Notes under the pieces: generated by a model | Database searches by the model: none | The model's input: the letters and a program-made list of their open reading frames with translations, nothing else | Told to the model about the DNA's origin: nothing | Made by a program: the position numbers and the translations under genes | Assembly (NCBI GenBank): GCA_026416815.1 | Contig: JAOAEJ010000023.1 | Location: 62,001-126,000 of the forward strand | Direction: 5' to 3' | Source of the DNA: Clostridia bacterium | GTDB lineage: Bacteria; Bacillota; Clostridia; Acetivibrionales; DSM-2933 | DNA length: 64,000 nucleotides | Shown: positions 3,735-17,585 of the stretch, in pieces | Position numbering within the stretch: the first letter of the stretch is position 1 | How the letters are laid out: the number at the start of each line of letters is the position of its first letter

Positions 3735-5711
3735 GTGAAACTTCGAACGAGAATTATGGTTCTTTTAGTAATTGTAATATTAATTCCATTTTCAACTGTC
3801 ATGGCTTATACCTATACCAGCATAAAGAGGAGTATACAGAATATAGAAGTTGATAAGTCAAAGCAGTACATATCTAGCGCACAGAAGTATTTGGAGCTCC
3901 TGACAAGGTCTAACTCGTCATCATATCTTTCGGTTACTTCATGGGACGATTATTTTAATGCTGTTGCAAGTAATGATGCTAAATGGATTACTGAAAATGT
4001 ATTAGCCTACGCCGGTGAGGATACGAATACCGAGTCTATACTCACACTAAGCGACAGCGGCAGGTTAATAGCTGAGTCAGGCTGTCCTGAAGAATGGAAG
4101 ACTATTAGCTTAAAGGACTTTCCTCTGTTTAAAAAGTTGGGTGATAAGCCCTATGTTAGCGGTATTGTTGAGAGTAAAGGTACAATTTACCTTGCTACAC
4201 TAGTTAAATTAGTCCAAAGCAGTGATACTGATTTTAAGAATTTAAACGGATATACCTTATACGGAAGGAAGCTTGATGCAGATCTTTTAAATGAAGGTAA
4301 GGACATTATGGGAATAGATATAGCTATCGCACTTGACAGTGGGAGTAAATTATCTACTTTCGATGGATTAAATTTGGGCGGGCTAAGTTCAAAGAGTTTT
4401 AAAACAGGAGAAATAAAAACTAAGGTGAATGTACTAAATGGTAAGATAGTGGCTGAGGCTGAACAGGCTTTTTATGATAGTAGTAATAGAGCGATAGGGG
4501 TTTTGTATATCAAAACTGGAAGCGAATCGGGCATAAGCGCTTTAAATACTGTTACGGTCAGTTCACTTTTTGTTGCATTTATTTTAATAATTTCTGTGGG
4601 AATAATTTGTATTTACATCGGCTTTAGCTTGAACCCTTTAAAATTTATAGTAAAAGAAGCCGAAAAAATTTCCATGGGGGATTTAACCGGGGAAATTAGG
4701 CAAAGGAATAGGCCATACTCAAAAGACGAAATAGGACAGGTCATTTATGCTTTTCAAACAATGAAAGGCAAATTCAGAGTGATGATCGATGATATTCTAA
4801 AGGCTTCATTACTTATAGCAAATATGTCAGAAGGGCTATCAAATACCGCGGCCGCTACAAAAGAATCTTCGGAGCAGGTTGCTGATTCTATTAATGAGAT
4901 AGCAGGCGGCATTAATAGGCAGCATGATAAAGCAAATGCAATTTTGCACACGATAGAAGATTTGTTCCAACGGGTTAATGAAGGAAATGAAGGGATCAGG
5001 ACATCGGTTATAGAGGCGTTTGAGTCTACAAAAGCTGCCCGTTCAGGTAAGGAGGCTTTTGAACAAGCAAGTGAACAGTCTAAAATAATAACCGAGACGA
5101 TATCGGTATTAGCCAAATCAATTGAGCAGTTAGGAAGCCATTCCAAGGATATTGAGAGTATAATAACTGCGATATCAGACATATCGAATCAAACGAATTT
5201 ATTGGCGCTGAATGCTTCGATTGAAGCAGCAAGAGCCGGGGAGCAGGGTAAAGGGTTTGCGGTAGTTGCAGATGAGGTACGAAAGCTGGCAGAGCAATCC
5301 AGGAACCAGACGGTGCAAATTACCGGATTGATTAAAGATATACAGTCTGTGACCTCTACAGCTATCAAAAGTGCAGAGCAAAATATAGAATCTATAGGTT
5401 TGCAGTTTAGTACTATCGAGAAAGGAAAAGACTCTCTGGTTACAATTGTTGATAAGGTTGAAAAAACAGAGGATAATTCAAAGAAAATACAGGTTATCTT
5501 GGAGCATATTAATGGATACGCTAAAGATGTATTAGGTGCTATCAGAGAAATTGAAGATGTAACTGAAGAATCCGCAGCCTCAACTGAGGAGGTGTCTGCA
5601 ACTGCAGAAGAACAATCTTCCATAGTAACTCAAATTGCAGAAAATGCCGAGAATCTGGCAGAACTTTCAAAGCAGCTTGAGGAGCAAATGAGCAGATTCA
5701 AGCTAAAATAG
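3735..5711 (+). CDS. Methyl-accepting chemotaxis protein with CHASE4-like sensor
   Basis: 658 residues from a GTG start with AAGGAGG 7 bases upstream. One membrane helix lies at about 7-29. An extracytoplasmic sensor region (30-270) contains [12 protein letters not shown], typical of CHASE4-type domains. A second helix is at about 274-296, a HAMP linker follows to about 350, and the rest is the long signalling coiled coil. The conserved hairpin tip with [20 protein letters not shown] lies near residue 500. No C-terminal CheR-tethering pentapeptide is seen. It signals to CheA/CheW, which are not in this window, so it is an orphan receptor. The ligand is unknown. Confidence 0.93.
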
Positions 5712-6862: not shown

Positions 6863-6947
6863 AATCTAAATATTACAGAAATAGGTAATTTTAGTATAAC
6901 CTACCACAAGCCAGCTGCAAAGTCGCCTACAAAGCCGCCTACAAAGC

Positions 6948-7087
6948 CCCTTAAGATTCAAGGGGAAACGCCCAAGGATGGGCGTTTTAGGCTTCATAGG
7001 GCAGGAGGCCCTTTGAAGCCGACTACCTCGAATAGCGAGAGGGGAACCCAGTGTAATGGGTTCCCCTCTCGGAAACTGCTTTAGACG
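6948..7087 (+). repeat. GC-rich multi-hairpin repeat, copy 1
   Basis: About 140 bases matching a second copy at 12538-12694. It has three strong hairpins: AACGCCC/GGGCGTT; GGCTTCA..GGGC with GCCC..TGAAGCC; and GAGAGGGGAACCCA/TGGGTTCCCCTCTC with a 6-base loop. The ends carry AAGC/GCTTT-type pairing. Its GC content is far above the surrounding sequence. Loop bases differ between the copies while stems are kept, suggesting a conserved RNA or DNA fold. No coding potential. The family is not one I recognise. Confidence 0.75.
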
Positions 7088-7115
7088 GCTTCAAAGTCAC
7101 TCTAAATGAATCTGT

Positions 7116-8792
7116 CTAATTTGTATACTCTATATGCAGCAGCGGCGCCTGTGTACTACTGCCCTCATAGGCTTCTGCACATCTCCAGCTTCCACTGGTG
7201 CCAGTTATTTGCATAACAATAGAATTGCCGCTTGACCAACCGCTTCTATTTACAATTTCTTGAATTATATTCTTGATATCAGGTGTACGCTCGTTTGTTC
7301 CTGCTGCACCTATCGTATTCCACGCAGGCGGTGCCCAGGTGACAGTTGCCGACGTTTTAGCACGGGATGAAACGTTATAAGCTGTTGTTGTGAAGGCGCC
7401 AGCATTATCCGAAGCTTCTCCCTTGATTGTAAGGTTTGCAGTTCCGCTGCTTACCTCATCGCATGTGAATTGTAGGTATGCATTTGTTATTACAGCACCC
7501 CTAGGTATGCTAATGCCGTTAAAACGCATACCTACGACTTGGTTTGTAGTACCATCGGTAATAAGCTCCAGATCGGTGCTATTAGTATACATGCTTCCGT
7601 CAGAGGTGTTTTCCTCAACATCATCCATACCGGTGGATACTCTTTTTTCTACAGTAGAACCGCTTACACTGCCGCCCGTAGACAAGTCAATTGTATCAAT
7701 TACCGTACCTCCGTCTTCGTATACCACCATATGCATTGAAGTAGGAGTCATATCAATTATTGAATAATTATAATCTTGTACTGATTTTAAAGTATAAGAA
7801 GCATTGCTTGGTGCAACAAGGGATGCTCCTCCACCACCTAATATCATATGGTGTATACCATTCACCAAGTTGTGCTGGTAGAAGTGTGAATGACCGGCTA
7901 TTACCATATCAACTCCATAAGGCTCGAAGATATTGGTCGTCATTGCTTTCATTCCCGAGTCTTCGCCATGACCGCCGGAACAATATGCAGGCTTGTGCGC
8001 TATTACTATTTTCCAGGGTTTTGTTGAGTTTGCAAGATCGCTTTGCGCAAAGTTGTACTGAGCACTTCCTGAAGTATATGAAATTTGAGTATTCAAAACT
8101 AAGACATGCATATCTCCGTAATCAAAGGAATAATAGTCTTGTGTACCGGAAGCGGAAGCTGGTGCGTGTGTAAATGCCTTGGTATTTGTACCCCATGTTT
8201 CATGGTTGCCTACTGCGTTAAAGAAGGGTACGTTAGCTATAAGTGATAATTCATTCGTGCGGAAAAATTCGCTTTTGAACTTAGAGTATGTACTGTCGTA
8301 ACAAAGGTCTCCACCATATAGTGAGAATTTCGGGTTTGCGTTCTTGATTCTGGTGGCAATTGTGTCATGAATGCTTGTTCCTGTACGGCAATCTGCCATA
8401 TAGGCAAAACGGAAGTTTGTACCGGGATTCACAGCCGTTGTGAATGTATAATCTGTGCTTGTGTTGCTTCCATGTCTGACCCTGTAGTGGTAAAGAGTAT
8501 TAGCTGTAAGGCCTGTAAGCTTGATGTTATGAACATAAGTAACAGGTGAGGCGGTAGTTGCTTCGTAACTTTCGGTTGAAGCAGTACTGCCGTATGCAGT
8601 AGTTGTACCGAAATCAACATATGCAGTAGAAGTGGAGTCGCATTCTACAAGCACATATATGCTGTTTGCGGTAACAGCCTGGAGGTATGGGGTCATTACG
8701 GTTGAGGCTGACGTTGAAAGGGAAAATACCGCTGCAGTGATGAGAAATACAGCCAGCCCCAGGGCTAGCAGTTGCTTGCTTGTTTTGAACAT
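7116..8792 (-). CDS. Secreted purple-acid-phosphatase-like metallophosphoesterase
   Basis: 558 residues with a GGAGGG site 9 bases before the ATG. An N-terminal signal peptide (1-30) is followed by a fibronectin-like purple acid phosphatase N-domain (31-122). The calcineurin-like phosphoesterase core (about 127-345) shows the metal-ligand motifs in order: ADCRTG, GGDLCY, GNHETW, AHKPAY and GHSHFY. After a Ser/Gly linker, a beta-rich C-terminal domain (about 385-558; IPRGAVITNAYLQFT) resembles accessory domains of extracellular Clostridia enzymes. It probably hydrolyses phosphate esters outside the cell. The substrate is unknown. No dockerin or cell-wall anchor is visible. It is monocistronic and convergent with the gene at 5981. 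Confidence 0.88.
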   Translation of the reverse strand: MFKTSKQLLALGLAVFLITAAVFSLSTSASTVMTPYLQAVTANSIYVLVECDSTSTAYVDFGTTTAYGSTASTESYEATTASPVTYVHNIKLTGLTANTLYHYRVRHGSNTSTDYTFTTAVNPGTNFRFAYMADCRTGTSIHDTIATRIKNANPKFSLYGGDLCYDSTYSKFKSEFFRTNELSLIANVPFFNAVGNHETWGTNTKAFTHAPASASGTQDYYSFDYGDMHVLVLNTQISYTSGSAQYNFAQSDLANSTKPWKIVIAHKPAYCSGGHGEDSGMKAMTTNIFEPYGVDMVIAGHSHFYQHNLVNGIHHMILGGGGASLVAPSNASYTLKSVQDYNYSIIDMTPTSMHMVVYEDGGTVIDTIDLSTGGSVSGSTVEKRVSTGMDDVEENTSDGSMYTNSTDLELITDGTTNQVVGMRFNGISIPRGAVITNAYLQFTCDEVSSGTANLTIKGEASDNAGAFTTTAYNVSSRAKTSATVTWAPPAWNTIGAAGTNERTPDIKNIIQEIVNRSGWSSGNSIVMQITGTSGSWRCAEAYEGSSTQAPLLHIEYTN

Positions 8793-8877: not shown

Positions 8878-9759
8878 TTACTTAGTGTTAAGTTTTACAT
8901 TATATTCCGATGATAAATCAGGGTAAGCTCTTTTTATATTATCCCTTAAAGCTGCAATATTAATTTCGGAGGCACTTTTCTGGAACTCGTTTTCAATAAG
9001 AGTTGCAAGTTTTTCATTCCCTGCGGAATCTTTGATGATTTTAAAGAAAACTCTACCTTCTACCTGCTTTTCAAAAGCAATGTTTATATTTTTTTCTAAG
9101 TTTGAAGCTATTCCCTCGAGCTCATATACAACAGAGAGGAAGTATACCTTATTTATAATATTCTCTATTTCCTTTATATACTGAGCTACCTTTTCTTGGT
9201 TCTTCGAGGTTATTTCTTTCTCGAGGTTATTTATTAATGTGGTAATTTTCGTATTGAATTCCTCCTTTGAATCAATATATTCTTCCCTGCGCTTGGCTGT
9301 GGGCTTTATAGCCTCATATAAAGCCTTGATTTTATTTGCGTAGTGAAGAGCCTTGCCTGTATCGTTATAGTCTCTCGAAATTGAATCAAGATTTCCCCTT
9401 ATAAGATTAACAAAGGCCATTTGCATGCTTTTTTCAAAACCCTGCAAATGAGGAGCCTTTACATTATCTTTTTCAGCAAGAGACAGGTATTCATTGATAT
9501 CGGATTTCAAGCCTGGAGAAGTCTTATCCGCTTCTTCAACCACCTTAGACAGTACATTTGAATAGATGTTCTTTATTTCCTGAATATCGGGATTTGGCGC
9601 TTTTTTAAGCTCAACTATTTTAAGATACTGGGCAGTTTGCTTATTAATCTCCGATACCTCCTCGCTGCCGCCGCAGCCTGAAAATGTTGTTAGAGCCATT
9701 GAAATTAATAAAATAAAGGAAGCCACATTTTTCATGTTTATTAAACCTCTTAGTAGCAT
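8878..9759 (-). CDS. Lipoprotein of unknown function, helix-rich
   Basis: 293 residues from the ATG at 9759, which has an excellent GGGAGG site 7 bases upstream; a second ATG at 9735 is also possible. The signal sequence ends in the lipobox TFSGC, so lipid attachment at that Cys is expected. The mature part is almost wholly charged, predicted alpha-helical sequence with Lys/Glu-rich heptad-like stretches, for instance around residues 150-215. I recognise no family. It is divergent from the TPR/radical-SAM operon across about 220 bases, and the two units may share regulatory DNA. Confidence 0.8.
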   Translation of the reverse strand: MLLRGLINMKNVASFILLISMALTTFSGCGGSEEVSEINKQTAQYLKIVELKKAPNPDIQEIKNIYSNVLSKVVEEADKTSPGLKSDINEYLSLAEKDNVKAPHLQGFEKSMQMAFVNLIRGNLDSISRDYNDTGKALHYANKIKALYEAIKPTAKRREEYIDSKEEFNTKITTLINNLEKEITSKNQEKVAQYIKEIENIINKVYFLSVVYELEGIASNLEKNINIAFEKQVEGRVFFKIIKDSAGNEKLATLIENEFQKSASEINIAALRDNIKRAYPDLSSEYNVKLNTK

Positions 9760-9982: not shown

Positions 9983-11128
9983 ATGATCAAAAAAATAGCA
10001 GTTTGTCTTGGGATGGTTATTTTGATAACCCTTGCAGCTTATACAGGTATTTATGCAGAAGGGCTGAAGCCTGATGAGATGGAAGTCATAAGCAAGTCAG
10101 ACGAAAGCTTTTCAAAAAAAGATTTTTCCAGTGCCGCTAATATGCTTGCACAGTTTTTGGATAACAATCCTGATACAAAAAATGAGAGCATATATTATAA
10201 GCTGGGTGATTTGTATGATAACTATATCTTTGACTTTGAAAAAGCAATTGAGGTATACAAAAAGTATCTTACTCTTTTTCCATCCGGGCGCTTCCGTGAT
10301 ATTTTTAGCGCAAATCTAAGCTATCTCGAGAAGAACAGGAAGGACTGGAGTGTACTAAAGGAATACAGGCATATAGTATTTACTTCCGAAGCACGAGCTT
10401 CATCGGAAAATATAGAAATGATGGAGGAACTGCTTGTAAAACATACAGCTTCATCAATAAGGCCTGATATGCATAACTGGCTGGCAAAGGAGTATTTTCA
10501 AAACGGAAGGTACGGCAGGTCACTAAACAACATTGAGAAATTTATAGAGACCTTTCCCGACAATGGAAAACCTGATGCTGAAAAGTCTTTAGCATACATG
10601 CTGTATTCCGATGCATCGATAAAAAATCATAGGTATTCTGAGGCGCAAAATGCATTGGATAAAGTCATGCAAATGGGTAACCCCAACAGTTATTTGGACT
10701 ATGATGAGAAGGTAAGGTACATCATAAAGGAAAAAAGTTTGTGGATGGCATATATTATTTCCGGTGTTTTCGTTTTCCTGCTAGCAGTGCTGATTTTTAT
10801 ATTCAGACCATGGCGAGAAAAAAATTTCGACCTAAGCCTGAGTAATTGTTGGAAACAGTTATTCCTGATGACAGCTGTTACAATTGGGTCGATGGTTTAT
10901 GTTAACTATCTGAATCATGGGCTTCTTCCGGTGTTTCCTGCGATATTGGTTGCAGCAATTGCTGTTTTGGTTATTATTAGAATGCTTTCATATGTAGCTT
11001 ACAAGATTAAAAAGCCTGTATATTTTGCTGTGAGCTTTTTACTAATGATTTCAGGGACTTACATTTCACTTTATGTTACTGATAGTGTATCAATTGTTTG
11101 GAATTTAGTTCAGAGCCTGAAGGGCTAA
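9983..11128 (+). CDS. Exported TPR-repeat protein with C-terminal membrane domain
   Basis: 381 residues, GGGGGGAT site before the ATG. An N-terminal signal or anchor helix (about 5-25) ends near YAEG. Residues 28-245 are helical-hairpin repeats of TPR type, for example SFSKKDFSSAANMLAQFLDN, YEKAIEVYKKYL-like and GRYGRSLNNIEKFIETFP. About four membrane helices then follow (254-272, 292-308, 315-335, 345-375). It is the first gene of a tight three-gene unit; the next start is 4 bases beyond its stop. The TPR part, probably outside the membrane, may bind a peptide or protein partner. Exact function is unknown. Confidence 0.8.
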   Translation: MIKKIAVCLGMVILITLAAYTGIYAEGLKPDEMEVISKSDESFSKKDFSSAANMLAQFLDNNPDTKNESIYYKLGDLYDNYIFDFEKAIEVYKKYLTLFPSGRFRDIFSANLSYLEKNRKDWSVLKEYRHIVFTSEARASSENIEMMEELLVKHTASSIRPDMHNWLAKEYFQNGRYGRSLNNIEKFIETFPDNGKPDAEKSLAYMLYSDASIKNHRYSEAQNALDKVMQMGNPNSYLDYDEKVRYIIKEKSLWMAYIISGVFVFLLAVLIFIFRPWREKNFDLSLSNCWKQLFLMTAVTIGSMVYVNYLNHGLLPVFPAILVAAIAVLVIIRMLSYVAYKIKKPVYFAVSFLLMISGTYISLYVTDSVSIVWNLVQSLKG

Positions 11129-11132
11129 AATT

Positions 11133-11354
11133 ATGAAGAAAGGATTGATGTTTATGCACTCCAGGAGAAAGGGCAAGATACTGAAGGTAAGGCTGGGATA
11201 TAATGCAAACTCTAGTTCCATAGCAACGATTGTTTCGGTGTTTATCTGGGGTTCTGCTGCAGTGGCTCTGGTTATAAATATGATCTCAGCTGCACTTTTT
11301 ATAAAAACAGATAAGGAGAAAGCCGGAGTGGAGGAAGAATGCGCAAGAATGTAA
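11133..11354 (+). CDS. 73-residue single-TM peptide encoded before a radical SAM gene
   Basis: The ATG follows the upstream stop by 4 bases, with GAAGGG as the likely ribosome binding site. The N-terminal 27 residues are very basic (MHSRRKGKILKVRLGY). One hydrophobic helix spans about 31-55 (IATIVSVFIWGSAAVALVIN), and the tail is acidic, ending EEECARM. Its last 16 bases overlap the start of the radical SAM gene, implying translational coupling. It could be a small membrane partner or a substrate peptide of the radical SAM enzyme. No known precursor-peptide class was recognised. Two inner ATGs (11148, 11154) are possible alternative starts. Confidence 0.7.
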   Translation: MKKGLMFMHSRRKGKILKVRLGYNANSSSIATIVSVFIWGSAAVALVINMISAALFIKTDKEKAGVEEECARM

Positions 11355-12505
11355 TTGATGATAAAAAAGTAGTAAGATATGAGTCGTTTGGAGGAATTGT
11401 CGGGTTAAATAACCCACCGACCTTAGTATTTGTTGACAGGGAATTTATGAAGGAGATGGGTTATGAAAGCTCAGAGCTTTGGCAACAACAAAGAAACTAT
11501 CTTTCTGCACCTACTGAAGTACATTTTAACATAACAAATGCTTGTCCAATGAGCTGCAGGCATTGTACCTCCGACTCCGGCAGCAGAAGCAGCGGTGATT
11601 TATCAAATGAGGACATCAAAAAGGCCATTGACGTATTAAGTGAAATGAAAGTATTTCACATTGCATTTGGTGGGGGAGAGCTTTTTGAAAGGACCGACGC
11701 CATAGATATTGCAGAGTATGCAAGTTCAAAGGGTATAGTACCCAACGCTACCACAAATGGCTATTATATAACCACTCCATTGGCAGAAAAATGTAAGGTG
11801 TTTGGGCAGATTAACATAAGCATAGACGGAATAGGCAGTAAATACGGTGTTATCAGGGGAGTGGACTCATTTGAATATGCTGACAGGGCAGCAAAGCTGC
11901 TTGTTGAAGCGGGTGTAAATACAGGTATTAACTGTATGGTTACAAATGCAAACTTCGATGACCTGGAAGAGGTAGTAGCCTATGCAGCCGATATCGGTAT
12001 GAAAGAAGTTTTATTTCTGAGGCTCAAGCCTTCGGGAAGGGCAAAAGCCATATATGATAAGTATAAGCTTACACAAGAGCAAAATAAATTATTTTATCGC
12101 TCTTTAATGAGGATGGCAAGGAAATATAAAATAAATTTACAGGTTGACTGCTCATTTATTCCTCACATCTGTTATCATAATCCCCCTGAGAAAGTTATGA
12201 AACTGCTTGGAATAGAAGGCTGTGAAGGTGGTAATGTATTATTAGGTGTGCGTCATGACGGATTAATAAATGCATGTAGCCACTACCCAAGCTATTATGA
12301 AAATATACACAAGCTTCCACATATGTGGAATGAACACGAGCATTTCAAGCAGTTCAGGGAAAGGCATATAACTGATGAAACTTGTATCAAATGCAACTAC
12401 TTTAAGCTTTGCAGGGGAGGGTGCCCACTTTTTTCTGAATTCATTACCGGAGATTTTAATGCGCCTGACCCAGAATGTCCGATAATCAGACAGAGGCAGT
12501 TGTAA
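11339..12505 (+). CDS. Radical SAM/SPASM-type maturase
   Basis: 388 residues. The GAGGAAGA site and start lie inside the end of the preceding small gene. An N-terminal segment of about 55 residues precedes the radical SAM core. CPMSCRHC (CxxxCxxC, near residue 69) binds the SAM-cleaving 4Fe-4S cluster, and GGGELF is the SAM-contacting glycine motif. The C-terminus has the auxiliary-cluster pattern CIKCNYFKLCRGGCP with a further Cys near the end (DPECP), typical of SPASM/twitch enzymes that modify peptides. No reductase or protease gene is adjacent. Substrate is unknown; the co-encoded 73-residue peptide is the natural candidate. Confidence 0.88.
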   Translation: MRKNVIDDKKVVRYESFGGIVGLNNPPTLVFVDREFMKEMGYESSELWQQQRNYLSAPTEVHFNITNACPMSCRHCTSDSGSRSSGDLSNEDIKKAIDVLSEMKVFHIAFGGGELFERTDAIDIAEYASSKGIVPNATTNGYYITTPLAEKCKVFGQINISIDGIGSKYGVIRGVDSFEYADRAAKLLVEAGVNTGINCMVTNANFDDLEEVVAYAADIGMKEVLFLRLKPSGRAKAIYDKYKLTQEQNKLFYRSLMRMARKYKINLQVDCSFIPHICYHNPPEKVMKLLGIEGCEGGNVLLGVRHDGLINACSHYPSYYENIHKLPHMWNEHEHFKQFRERHITDETCIKCNYFKLCRGGCPLFSEFITGDFNAPDPECPIIRQRQL

Positions 12506-12537
12506 CTATAAGGAATATTGAATCCTACTGCAAAGCA

Positions 12538-12694
12538 GCTTAAGATTCAAGGGGAAAACGCCCAAGGACGGGCGTTTTAGGCTTCATAGGGCAGGATGCC
12601 CTTTGAAGCCTACCACCCCGAACAGCGAGTGGAGGGGAGCGTCCGAGAGGGGAACCCAGCGCAATGGGTTCCCCTCTCGGAAACTGCTTTAGAC
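12538..12694 (+). repeat. GC-rich multi-hairpin repeat, copy 2
   Basis: About 157 bases aligned with the copy at 6948-7087. It is enclosed by AAAGCAG and CTGCTTT arms. Inside are hairpins AACGCCC/GGGCGTT, GGCTTCA..GGGC with GCCC..TGAAGCC, and GAGAGGGGAACCCA/TGGGTTCCCCTCTC. It carries about 17 extra bases before the last hairpin. An apparent minus-strand ORF here is an artefact of its high GC content. Confidence 0.75.
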
Positions 12695-12797
12695 AACTCC
12701 AAAGCCACTCCAAAATAACACCCCCCATTGACAAACCCCACAAAATCTGCCATAATTAATTCGACACTTATCAAAACGTGAAAAGGTTGTGTTACCA

Positions 12798-13141: not shown

Positions 13142-13921
13142 TTGTCCACAACACTATATTACTTTTCCGGAACGGGCAATTCTTACATCATAGCAAAAGA
13201 AATTCAAAAAAGGTTGGGCAACTGCGAGCTGACAGCTATAACCAGCATATGGAACCTGGACAACATCGCCGCTATGGCTGAAAACATCGGCTTTATATTT
13301 CCACTATATTGCATGGGTATGCCTAAGGTGGTACTGGACTTTATAAGAAAAATAGACCTAAACAATGCAAAGTATATCTTTACTGTAGTAACCAGAGGAG
13401 GGAAGGGCTATCAAGGAGGTGCACTAAAACAAACCCGTGAAGTGCTGATGAAAAAAGGAAAAAAACTTTCCTCAGGCTTTTACATCCGAATGCCCGATAA
13501 CTACATTCCGCTGCTAAAGGTTCCGCCAAAGGAACAACAGAAAATAATGTTTAAAGAAGCCGCTAAAAAAGTAGAAAAAATATCTGAGTTGATTAGCAAA
13601 AAAGAGGCTATTATGGAAAAAGAATATACAGCCTTCGCAGCACCGCTACTGTATAAACCCTTTATAAAAAGGGTCAGCCAAATTGATAAGGGATTCCATG
13701 TCACAGAAAAGTGCAACTCATGCGGTATGTGTGAAAAAGTATGCCATTTTAACAATATCAAAATGGTTGAAGGAAAGCCAAAGTGGCAGCATAACTGTCA
13801 GTTTTGCCTTGCATGTATAAATTACTGCCCAAAAAAAGCTATGGAATACAAAAAAGGAAGCAAAGGTAAGGAGAGGTATAATCATCCGGACGTTACTATA
13901 AACCTGTATACAAAAATATAA
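13142..13921 (+). CDS. EFR1-family flavodoxin-ferredoxin fusion
   Basis: 259 residues from a TTG start with GGAGGGA upstream. The N-terminal flavodoxin-like domain (1-about 150) begins with the FMN-phosphate loop YYFSGTGNSYIIAKEI. The C-terminal part carries two 4Fe-4S ferredoxin motifs, CNSCGMCEKVC and CQFCLACINYC. Proteins of this kind transfer low-potential electrons in anaerobes; the partner is unknown. It is probably co-transcribed with the ArsR gene and ends before a bidirectional terminator shared with fabF. Confidence 0.92.
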   Translation: MSTTLYYFSGTGNSYIIAKEIQKRLGNCELTAITSIWNLDNIAAMAENIGFIFPLYCMGMPKVVLDFIRKIDLNNAKYIFTVVTRGGKGYQGGALKQTREVLMKKGKKLSSGFYIRMPDNYIPLLKVPPKEQQKIMFKEAAKKVEKISELISKKEAIMEKEYTAFAAPLLYKPFIKRVSQIDKGFHVTEKCNSCGMCEKVCHFNNIKMVEGKPKWQHNCQFCLACINYCPKKAMEYKKGSKGKERYNHPDVTINLYTKI

Positions 13922-15283: not shown

Positions 15284-15404
15284 TTTAAAAAACCTCCTGA
15301 TTACTGTAATAAGCACGGGAAATATTTACTTAAATAAAAATAACATATATAATCATAAAGAAATGAACCGTTATTGCTTTCTTATAGTGAAAGGGGCAAA
15401 AAAT

Positions 15405-16331
15405 ATGCTGGATACCAAAAGTGCTATAAAATCGTGTATAGGCTACATTGAAAGCAATATAAACAACAAAATTTCCCTGGATGATATTGCGTATCACACA
15501 GGCATTTCAAAATACTATTTGCACAGAATATTTAAGTCCCTCACAGGGCAATCCATTATAGACTATGTTCAATCACGCAAGCTGTCGTCAAGTATAAATG
15601 AACTTATAAATACCAACATGAGGGTTATAGATATAGCGTTGGAATACGGCTTTGACCATGAACAATCCTATATCAGAGCGTTTAGGAAGAAATTCGGTTA
15701 TACGCCGTTAAAAGTCAGGTCGGATCAGATTTCAATAAATATTACCGAGAGAATCAACATAAATGATATTCTATCCATCAATAACTCGGTAACCTATAAG
15801 CCTTTCTATGTTTTTAAGCAGAAATTTAATCTTATAGGGAATAAATATAAGATATTAAGTAGGTCCGGTGATAATATTGCAAATAATTGCGGAAGGGACT
15901 TCTTTTATAATCACAAAGATAAAATTACTAATGCGGTAAATCCTGAGGTATATTTTGGATATACCGACTGGAGTGGATATGATAAAGGATATATATATTA
16001 CATTCCTTCCATACAGGTTAGTGACCTCAATCACGTACCCGAAGGAATGGTGGGGATTTCCATACCCGCGCACAAGTATGTTGTATTTCGTTTTGTGGGC
16101 TTCTTCCGGCCCGAAGAAATAAAAGGAAGGCAGGTGGGGCGGCTGATAGTGCATTTATATCGTAAATGGATTACCAACTCCGGCTTTAAGTCTGCAGATA
16201 AATTTAGATTTGAATATGCTGATATAGGGCTATCAAATGACAACTACTGTGAGTTAGATATTTATCAACCTATAATTGAAGAAAACGAAACTTATATAGA
16301 ATATGCAGCCCTAAATCCATGCGGACAATAA
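15405..16331 (+). CDS. AraC-family regulator with GyrI-like effector domain
   Basis: 308 residues from the ATG at 15405 (AAGGGG site). The frame is open far upstream, but only by running antisense through fabF. The N-terminal pair of helix-turn-helix motifs (1-105) includes ISLDDIAYHTGISKYYLHRI and IALEYGFDHEQSYIRAF. The C-terminal half (about 150-300) is a GyrI-like effector-binding fold with VYFGYTDWSG and IPAHKYVVFRFVG. Family members bind a small hydrophobic ligand and activate a nearby gene. It is divergent from fabF, whose promoter it could control, and there is no adjacent efflux gene. Confidence 0.9.
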   Translation: MLDTKSAIKSCIGYIESNINNKISLDDIAYHTGISKYYLHRIFKSLTGQSIIDYVQSRKLSSSINELINTNMRVIDIALEYGFDHEQSYIRAFRKKFGYTPLKVRSDQISINITERININDILSINNSVTYKPFYVFKQKFNLIGNKYKILSRSGDNIANNCGRDFFYNHKDKITNAVNPEVYFGYTDWSGYDKGYIYYIPSIQVSDLNHVPEGMVGISIPAHKYVVFRFVGFFRPEEIKGRQVGRLIVHLYRKWITNSGFKSADKFRFEYADIGLSNDNYCELDIYQPIIEENETYIEYAALNPCGQ

Positions 16332-17235: not shown

Positions 17236-17368
17236 ATAAATACCAACCTTCTTGTAATAATATACAAAGTGATTATATATAATTTAACATCGACAGGCAA
17301 TATAATATTTAACGTATGTTGCAATAAAGATTTTACCCATAGGAGTAAAGTGTTTACCTCTTTTTATA

Positions 17369-17492
17369 TATATAAATTGCAAAAAAGAATCTACAACGAA
17401 GTTCTCCCTAAATCTTTTTTGCAATTTGTTACCTTAAGTTATATTGCGATAATCAAAATTTTCCTTGTAATATCATTATCGCAATTTATATA
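17369..17492 (+). mobile_element. MITE family A, copy 1
   Basis: About 124 bases bounded by TATATAAATTGC and GCAATTTATATA. Two internal hairpins are present, one around AATCTAC/GTTCTCC and one formed by GCGATAAT/ATTATCGC. Copies at 19357, 32083 and 58447 match it closely. No transposase is encoded. Confidence 0.85.
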
Positions 17493-17585
17493 GATTGAAA
17501 TCAAAGATAGAAAAATGATTTCTCTGCGTATTGACACATCAAATTAGGTGTATTATATTAGTGTTAATATTATATATTATTCGAT

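Follow-up and report, generated by a model that had tools for sequence, protein, structure and literature searches.

Genomic context of a radical SAM/SPASM gene in a Clostridia bacterium

We analyzed a window of 64,000 nucleotides from a Clostridia bacterium genome (assembly GCA_026416815.1, contig JAOAEJ010000023.1, positions 62,001 to 126,000 of the forward strand). The window contains a forward-strand run of three genes, which encode a TPR-type membrane protein, a small peptide and a radical SAM/SPASM enzyme. The open reading frame coordinates agree exactly with the original prediction for this run, with a 4-base gap between the TPR and peptide genes and a 16-base overlap between the peptide and enzyme genes. 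Gaps in most runs of the related clusters described below fall between -23 and +8 bases. On the opposite strand lie genes for a helical-bundle lipoprotein and a secreted metallophosphoesterase (MPE). The same gene set and the same peptide motif recur in four phyla, and on these sequence comparisons a chance arrangement of the TPR, peptide and enzyme genes is ruled out. Because the lipoprotein and MPE also recur in clusters elsewhere, gene content defines the system in the window as five genes (Table 1).

Table 1. Genes, protein features and flanking repeats of the five-gene system (positions in the window; residue numbers refer to the respective protein).
Feature	Position	Strand	Details and basis
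Left copy of ~190-bp dispersed repeat	6920..7110	+	sequence comparison
Secreted metallophosphoesterase (MPE), purple-acid-phosphatase N-terminal domain	7116..8792	-	Pfam
Helical-bundle lipoprotein	8878..9759	-	BLASTP and cluster homologues
TPR-membrane protein gene	9983-11128	+	381 aa; ORF list
Peptide gene	11133-11354	+	73 aa; ORF list
Conserved block of peptide, GKILKVRLGYNANSSSIAT	11172..11228	+	15 distinct peptides aligned
Transmembrane helix of peptide, aa 30-48	11220..11276	+	hydropathy scan
Radical SAM/SPASM enzyme gene	11339-12505	+	388 aa; Pfam, NCBIfam
N-terminal segment of enzyme, RYESFGGIVGLNNPPTLVFVDREFMKEM	11369..11458	+	possible remnant of peptide-binding (RRE/PqqD-like) domain
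CxxxCxxC SAM cluster motif, C69/C73/C76 (C69-x3-C73-x2-C76)	11543..11566	+	alignment
Cys271 in D-C-S	12149..12151	+	invariant in 12/12 family enzymes; Asp in four MftC
Seven-Cys SPASM region, C295-C380	12221..12478	+	alignment
Right copy of ~190-bp dispersed repeat	12511..12720	+	same orientation as left copy

The five-gene block is bracketed closely by direct copies of a ~190-bp repeat that contains two GC-rich hairpins. Elsewhere in the same genome, about 398 kb of sequence yielded two more copies (L077, about 17315-17500, and L091, about 15312-15482; L and G numbers are our own labels). We estimate that, at this density, a second copy would fall within 5.6 kb by chance in roughly 5% of cases, so the flanking copies hint at a cassette without proving one. 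A foreign base composition can be dismissed, as the cassette (38.8%) does not differ from the window (38.6%). A promoter and terminator scan came out near the shuffled background. Downstream of the right repeat copy and outside the cassette, positions 13142-13921 follow an ArsR-type regulator and encode a protein with a flavodoxin-like start and two 4Fe-4S ferredoxin motifs, a possible electron donor.

The membrane peptide and its conserved block

The peptide has one transmembrane segment by hydropathy scan (mean hydropathy 2.37) and a strongly basic N-terminus, as expected from its original description as a basic, single-helix peptide. Its topology is read from charge and hydropathy, and some peptides of the family show no strong charge bias. 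Translation may also start internally, at M6 or M8 (11148 or 11154).

Alignment of 15 distinct peptides from 12 genomes yields the consensus G[KR][IVL]L[RK]x[KR]xG[YHFM]N[PA]NSS[SG]x[GA][ST], which lies directly before the membrane helix and in which G1, L4, G9, N11, N13, S14 and S15 are invariant. Related peptides encoded beside the relatives' enzymes read GKILRVKQGYNPNSSSMGS..., followed by the membrane helix. The conserved block is thus N-terminal, and the membrane tail is the variable part. One peptide (L071) may begin only two residues ahead of the block, which leaves no long classical leader. The alternating basic and hydrophobic residues of the block suggest a docking strand. The residue after the invariant second glycine is Tyr in ten peptides, His in three, Phe in one and Met in one (G462), and this Met weakens the case for an aromatic residue as a required crosslink partner. 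Sactipeptides and ranthipeptides have Cys residues in the core for their thioether links, but no cysteine is conserved among the 15 aligned peptides, and thioethers are therefore unlikely.

The peptide matched no family in NCBIfam or Pfam, and sequence searches with the peptide, the lipoprotein and a pilin-like protein from related clusters returned no solved relatives. To our knowledge, this peptide/enzyme family has not been described. The block motif was absent from the literature text searched, a search that stopped short of the supplement with the 22 pathways of PMC9062424.

The radical SAM/SPASM enzyme

The third gene product matches Pfam Radical_SAM (PF04055, 61.7 bits). Both cysteine signatures attributed to it from the sequence, CxxxCxxC and SPASM-type, could be located: C69/C73/C76 are invariant across the family alignment, and the full SPASM set consists of C295/C313/C349/C352/C358/C362/C380. 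The first six of these occur in 12/12 aligned rows and C380 in 11/12, and the SPASM columns are those of MftC. The Pfam SPASM model falls slightly short on the window enzyme (17.2 against a cut-off of 21.5). A further cysteine, Cys271, would fit either a ligand of the Aux I cluster or an H-atom donor for epimerization.

The N-terminal segment contains an R..E.FGGI pattern that is invariant in 11 relatives. The N-terminus is too short for a full RRE (bbb-aaa); in a low-confidence model the segment forms strands followed by one helix. The pattern FR.E.FGGI also occurs at the N-terminus of SuiB, in a match that is not significant, and hhalign placed the segment in the same register as four MftB proteins, likewise without significance. 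The segment resembles the start of the RRE domains in SuiB and MftB and is a possible remnant of such a domain.

The enzyme reached no cut-off of a named class in NCBIfam or Pfam. Its best NCBIfam match is the mycofactocin maturase TIGR03962 (178.7 bits, cut-off 265), a model matched by all 11 family members scanned; the equivalog cut-offs for PqqE (81.8 against 381.35 bits) and GeoRSP rSAM (139.6 against 400 bits) were missed. In a tree, the 12 family enzymes split from four MftC with branch support of 96/95, and a paralogue from the window's own genome forms a very long branch. The plasmids searched held similarity at the mycofactocin level or weaker only. PqqE is the nearest solved structure by profile (3.7e-28), with SuiB close, and is also nearest to the enzyme model (Z 15.1, rmsd 3.0, 192 aligned), where it is tied among radical SAM folds. 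The AlphaFold model was built from a 4-row alignment (mean pLDDT 58) and is unreliable in its N-terminus and SPASM part, so no docking conclusions were drawn.

The match to the mycofactocin maturase, the position of PqqE as best solved relative and the presence of a TlpA-like thioredoxin and a small membrane protein in some clusters would suit a ribosomal redox cofactor of the mycofactocin or PQQ kind, in which the enzyme rearranges residues of the peptide that are then cut out as the cofactor of an envelope enzyme. We consider such a cofactor very improbable: the window cluster has no recognized MftB/D/E/F-like or PqqB/C/F-like partner, the conserved block is N-terminal rather than C-terminal, and the Tyr after the glycine is not constant.

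Distribution and reciprocal co-occurrence of enzyme and peptide

Our searches covered about 2,000 genomes and, in addition, one collection scan, and all counts come from samples rather than a full census. Beyond the window, the relatives come from unannotated and mostly draft genomes, often on short contigs. We identified the enzyme in 13 genomes from Clostridia, Planctomycetota, Aminicenantes and Gammaproteobacteria. Twelve of these encode the NPNSS peptide, and the thirteenth (G001) encodes a fused, divergent version. A one-genome-per-species scan found enzyme relatives of 45-47% identity in a planctomycete, an Aminicenantes MAG and a gammaproteobacterial MAG, and a family search found a distant enzyme (31%) within the same bacterial family. 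The gammaproteobacterial enzyme gene is divided between two contigs, with the peptide beside its C-terminal half.

Sampling of 246 Planctomycetota added four enzymes (5/246 overall). The rate was 1/391 in the class Clostridia, 2/58 in the order, 1/247 in the Aminicenantes phylum and 0/299 in the gammaproteobacterial phylum, the last at a threshold so strict that even the known split gene escaped it. By these counts the cassette is rare and patchily inherited, with the same set in four distant phyla, among which the system probably spread by horizontal transfer.

Starting from the enzyme, 9/9 genomes hold the peptide, eight in the NPNSS form and G001 as the divergent variant. For the reciprocal test, a profile of eight peptides was searched in 12 genomes. 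It found the peptide in 8/8 genomes with a mainstream enzyme and nothing above noise in three genomes of the same family that lack the enzyme. The peptide of G563, which is unlinked to the enzyme gene and was absent from the query profile, was nevertheless recovered at E 1.2e-13. A peptide-first search of 392 Planctomycetota identified seven genomes: the five known enzyme carriers and two new ones, in which the enzyme lies in the peptide's cluster, directly after the peptide gene or after the peptide and TPR genes. A peptide-first search at class level identified two more genomes, with the enzyme present and two peptides each. The enzyme is thus in the peptide cluster in 4/4 genomes found by the peptide alone.

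This reciprocal co-occurrence suggests that the peptide is probably the substrate of the radical SAM enzyme and favors the original prediction of a substrate or membrane partner. That prediction would have been weakened by enzyme homologues that lack peptide and TPR genes, and such a departure was encountered only in the divergent G001. There, KILKVRPGHLANFSGGAGYMP starts a 168-aa membrane protein (L026 9732-10238, minus strand) that overlaps the divergent enzyme gene, and there is no TPR gene. The fused membrane protein of G001 could mark another branch of the system.

TPR proteins and other neighbors

TPR is a common domain. The window protein exceeds the Pfam cut-offs for TPR_2, TPR_8 and TPR_6 and has, by hydropathy, a signal-like N-terminus and at least three further, C-terminal hydrophobic segments. 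A TPR-type membrane protein directly adjoins 12/15 peptides and shares a cluster with 15/15, which amounts to 12/12 genomes, one of them (G563) by eye only; the TPR protein can thus be retained as part of the system, with the receptor or export role first suggested for it as a conjecture. It is a stand-alone TPR/TM protein in the window, G395 (twice), G396, G397, G420, G441, G1232, G1364, G1438 and G1626; in G1232 and G441 the TPR assignment comes from inspecting the translation by eye. The partner in G462 is a membrane Ser/Thr kinase with TPR, and that in G563 is an O-antigen-polymerase-like protein with C-terminal TPR-like repeats seen by eye, without Pfam support. Similarity among the TPR proteins is weak (about 20% identity), and the window protein has weakly related counterparts in L029 and L070.

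G563 retains a TPR/peptide pair though its enzyme gene is elsewhere in the genome, and G395 has two such pairs around one enzyme. Both arrangements would fit a peptide that is a mere membrane anchor or regulator of the TPR protein and an enzyme with another target, for instance the TPR protein or a small molecule. Conservation of the peptide motif, however, greatly exceeds that of every TPR protein, none of the genomes screened has enzyme or peptide without the other, and the nearest characterized enzymes (PqqE, MftC and SuiB) act on peptides. An anchoring role alone is accordingly given little credence here.

The MPE (Pfam Metallophos, 49.8 bits, and Pur_ac_phosph_N) has homologues inside the clusters of L010, L029, L070 and L071. 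Its presence in the clusters of five genomes from three phyla (the window, G395, G397, G1438 and G1626) indicates that it, too, belongs to the system, from which it had originally been left out. The lipoprotein has a lipobox-like FSGC near its N-terminus and a likely start at M9 (9735). It is related to the cluster lipoprotein of L063 (BLASTP 1e-12) and has homologues in L070 and L072. In total, it lies in the clusters of four genomes from two phyla (the window, G1364, G1438 and G1626, in the last across two contigs), and the homologues in three other genomes bear out the suggestion that this divergently transcribed gene is a member. Matches of the lipoprotein to four-helix bundles (Z about 10-11) are generic and uninformative for helical bundles. 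A link to iron through the FEA1-related NF038033 was discarded because the scores are too weak: of three lipoprotein relatives with a weak match, the best reaches E 0.00087 (18.1 bits against a cut-off of 250), and the window lipoprotein itself has no match.

Planctomycete and Aminicenantes clusters additionally include a pilin-like protein, and some clusters a TlpA-like thioredoxin. In three planctomycetes, a Ser/Thr kinase is the neighbor of the enzyme or peptide (L022 2741-4600, L056 428-3466 and L020 from about 2640), and the helical N-terminal regions of these kinases look alike. A family of small His-bearing membrane proteins without a Pfam match, present in two clusters (L063 1215-1685 and L064 about 4707-5320), resembles b-type cytochromes by eye only. 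Near the unlinked enzyme gene of G563, a HlyD/M50-type protein (L022 9210-11360, minus strand) and a second large protein (L022 6897-9188, minus strand) are candidates for a pair that exports peptides.

In the peptide clusters read, which often lie on short contigs that hide neighbors, we recognized no transporter, leader peptidase or immunity gene. This bears on whether the product is a secreted RiPP, a signal or antimicrobial, whose precursor would be modified, cleaved near the invariant glycine and exported, with the TPR protein, lipoprotein and MPE aiding export or processing. A radical SAM/SPASM gene beside a small peptide gene is the usual RiPP layout, and the patchy spread within Clostridia, the order and Planctomycetota fits such a product. 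We nonetheless judge a secreted RiPP unlikely. Besides the missing peptidase and transporter genes, the block is conserved at the N-terminus and the membrane tail varies, a single motif spans four phyla in a manner unlike fast-evolving toxins, and the peptide has membrane proteins as partners, with two such pairs in one genome.

A model for peptide modification in the membrane

In the reading that we find reasonably probable, a membrane-resident peptide cooperates with the TPR protein within an envelope complex, and the SPASM enzyme modifies the N-x-N-S-S block of this peptide. The substrate, a microprotein that crosses the membrane once, would be the product of the second gene, and the enzyme that modifies it, a radical SAM protein of the SPASM type, that of the third. 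The enzyme would recognize the segment GKILKVRxG, which is basic and strand-like, and make a radical-based change in the N-x-N-S-S block next to it, at the cytoplasmic edge of the membrane helix. The modified peptide would stay in the membrane rather than be released as a diffusible product and would pair with the TPR-membrane protein, whose TPR domain is predicted to face outside. The envelope complex may also use the secreted MPE and the lipoprotein.

Retention and complex formation are suggested by the topology, the conserved TPR pairing and the lack of recognized export genes. Observations that count against the model include the unlinked enzyme gene of G563, the missing TPR gene of G001, the Met after the invariant glycine in G462, and the weak similarity among the TPR proteins together with the commonness of their domain. 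As to chemistry, a four-residue Aro-x-x-Asn crosslink in the peptide is possible; epimerization with Cys271 as H-atom donor is a candidate, as is a role of Cys271 as cluster ligand.

We offer only tentatively the broader proposal that the transmembrane microprotein tailored by the enzyme is a resident, functional subunit of an envelope complex based on TPR, not the precursor of a secreted peptide or cofactor. If true, microprotein tailoring would give SPASM peptide chemistry a new role, patchily common to four phyla, and would suggest that radical SAM chemistry may serve envelope complexes besides secreted natural products. With its invariant N-x-N-S-S, the putative enzyme/substrate pair is sharply defined and suited to tests of new radical SAM chemistry on a peptide in the membrane. 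For genome mining, the peptide motif offers a simple marker. The system is rare and patchy enough for surveys that keep only large enzyme clusters to miss it.

Comparison with known radical SAM peptide systems

The system has a conserved short peptide gene tied to its enzyme gene, as RiPP systems do. No NCBIfam or Pfam cut-off assigns it to a named RiPP class, in keeping with the initial failure to match it to one. Like MftC, which is encoded with MftA and MftB, the window enzyme is a SPASM radical SAM protein encoded beside a short peptide, and it shares the cluster cysteines of MftC. It differs in falling below the TIGR03962 cut-off, in forming a separate clade and in having Cys at position 271, where four MftC have Asp. 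No MftB, D, E or F was recognized near the window enzyme, and its peptide is membrane-bound and dissimilar to MftA. PqqE is the closest solved structure by profile, but the PqqE cut-off is missed, no PQQ genes were recognized and the substrate motif differs.

The streptide enzyme SuiB has a similar N-terminal pattern, in the match without significance noted above, and [YHF]-N-P-N in the peptide resembles the motif of the Aro-x-x-Asn cyclophanes (PMC9062424, Cluster 27). That study predicts a four-residue Aro-x-x-Asn crosslink for another enzyme group. In contrast to these systems, the peptide has Met in place of the aromatic residue in one genome, and its invariant core is N-x-N-S-S with a membrane helix directly after it. 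A cysteine outside the SAM motif has been proposed as the H-atom donor in the epimerases EpeE/YydG and PoyD (PMC8326336). Cys271 of the window enzyme also lies outside this motif and could act in the same way, but the enzyme matches no epimerase family and Cys271 may equally be a cluster ligand. By sequence comparison, the system, a radical SAM enzyme with a peptide in an unusual membrane setting, fits no described radical SAM peptide class.
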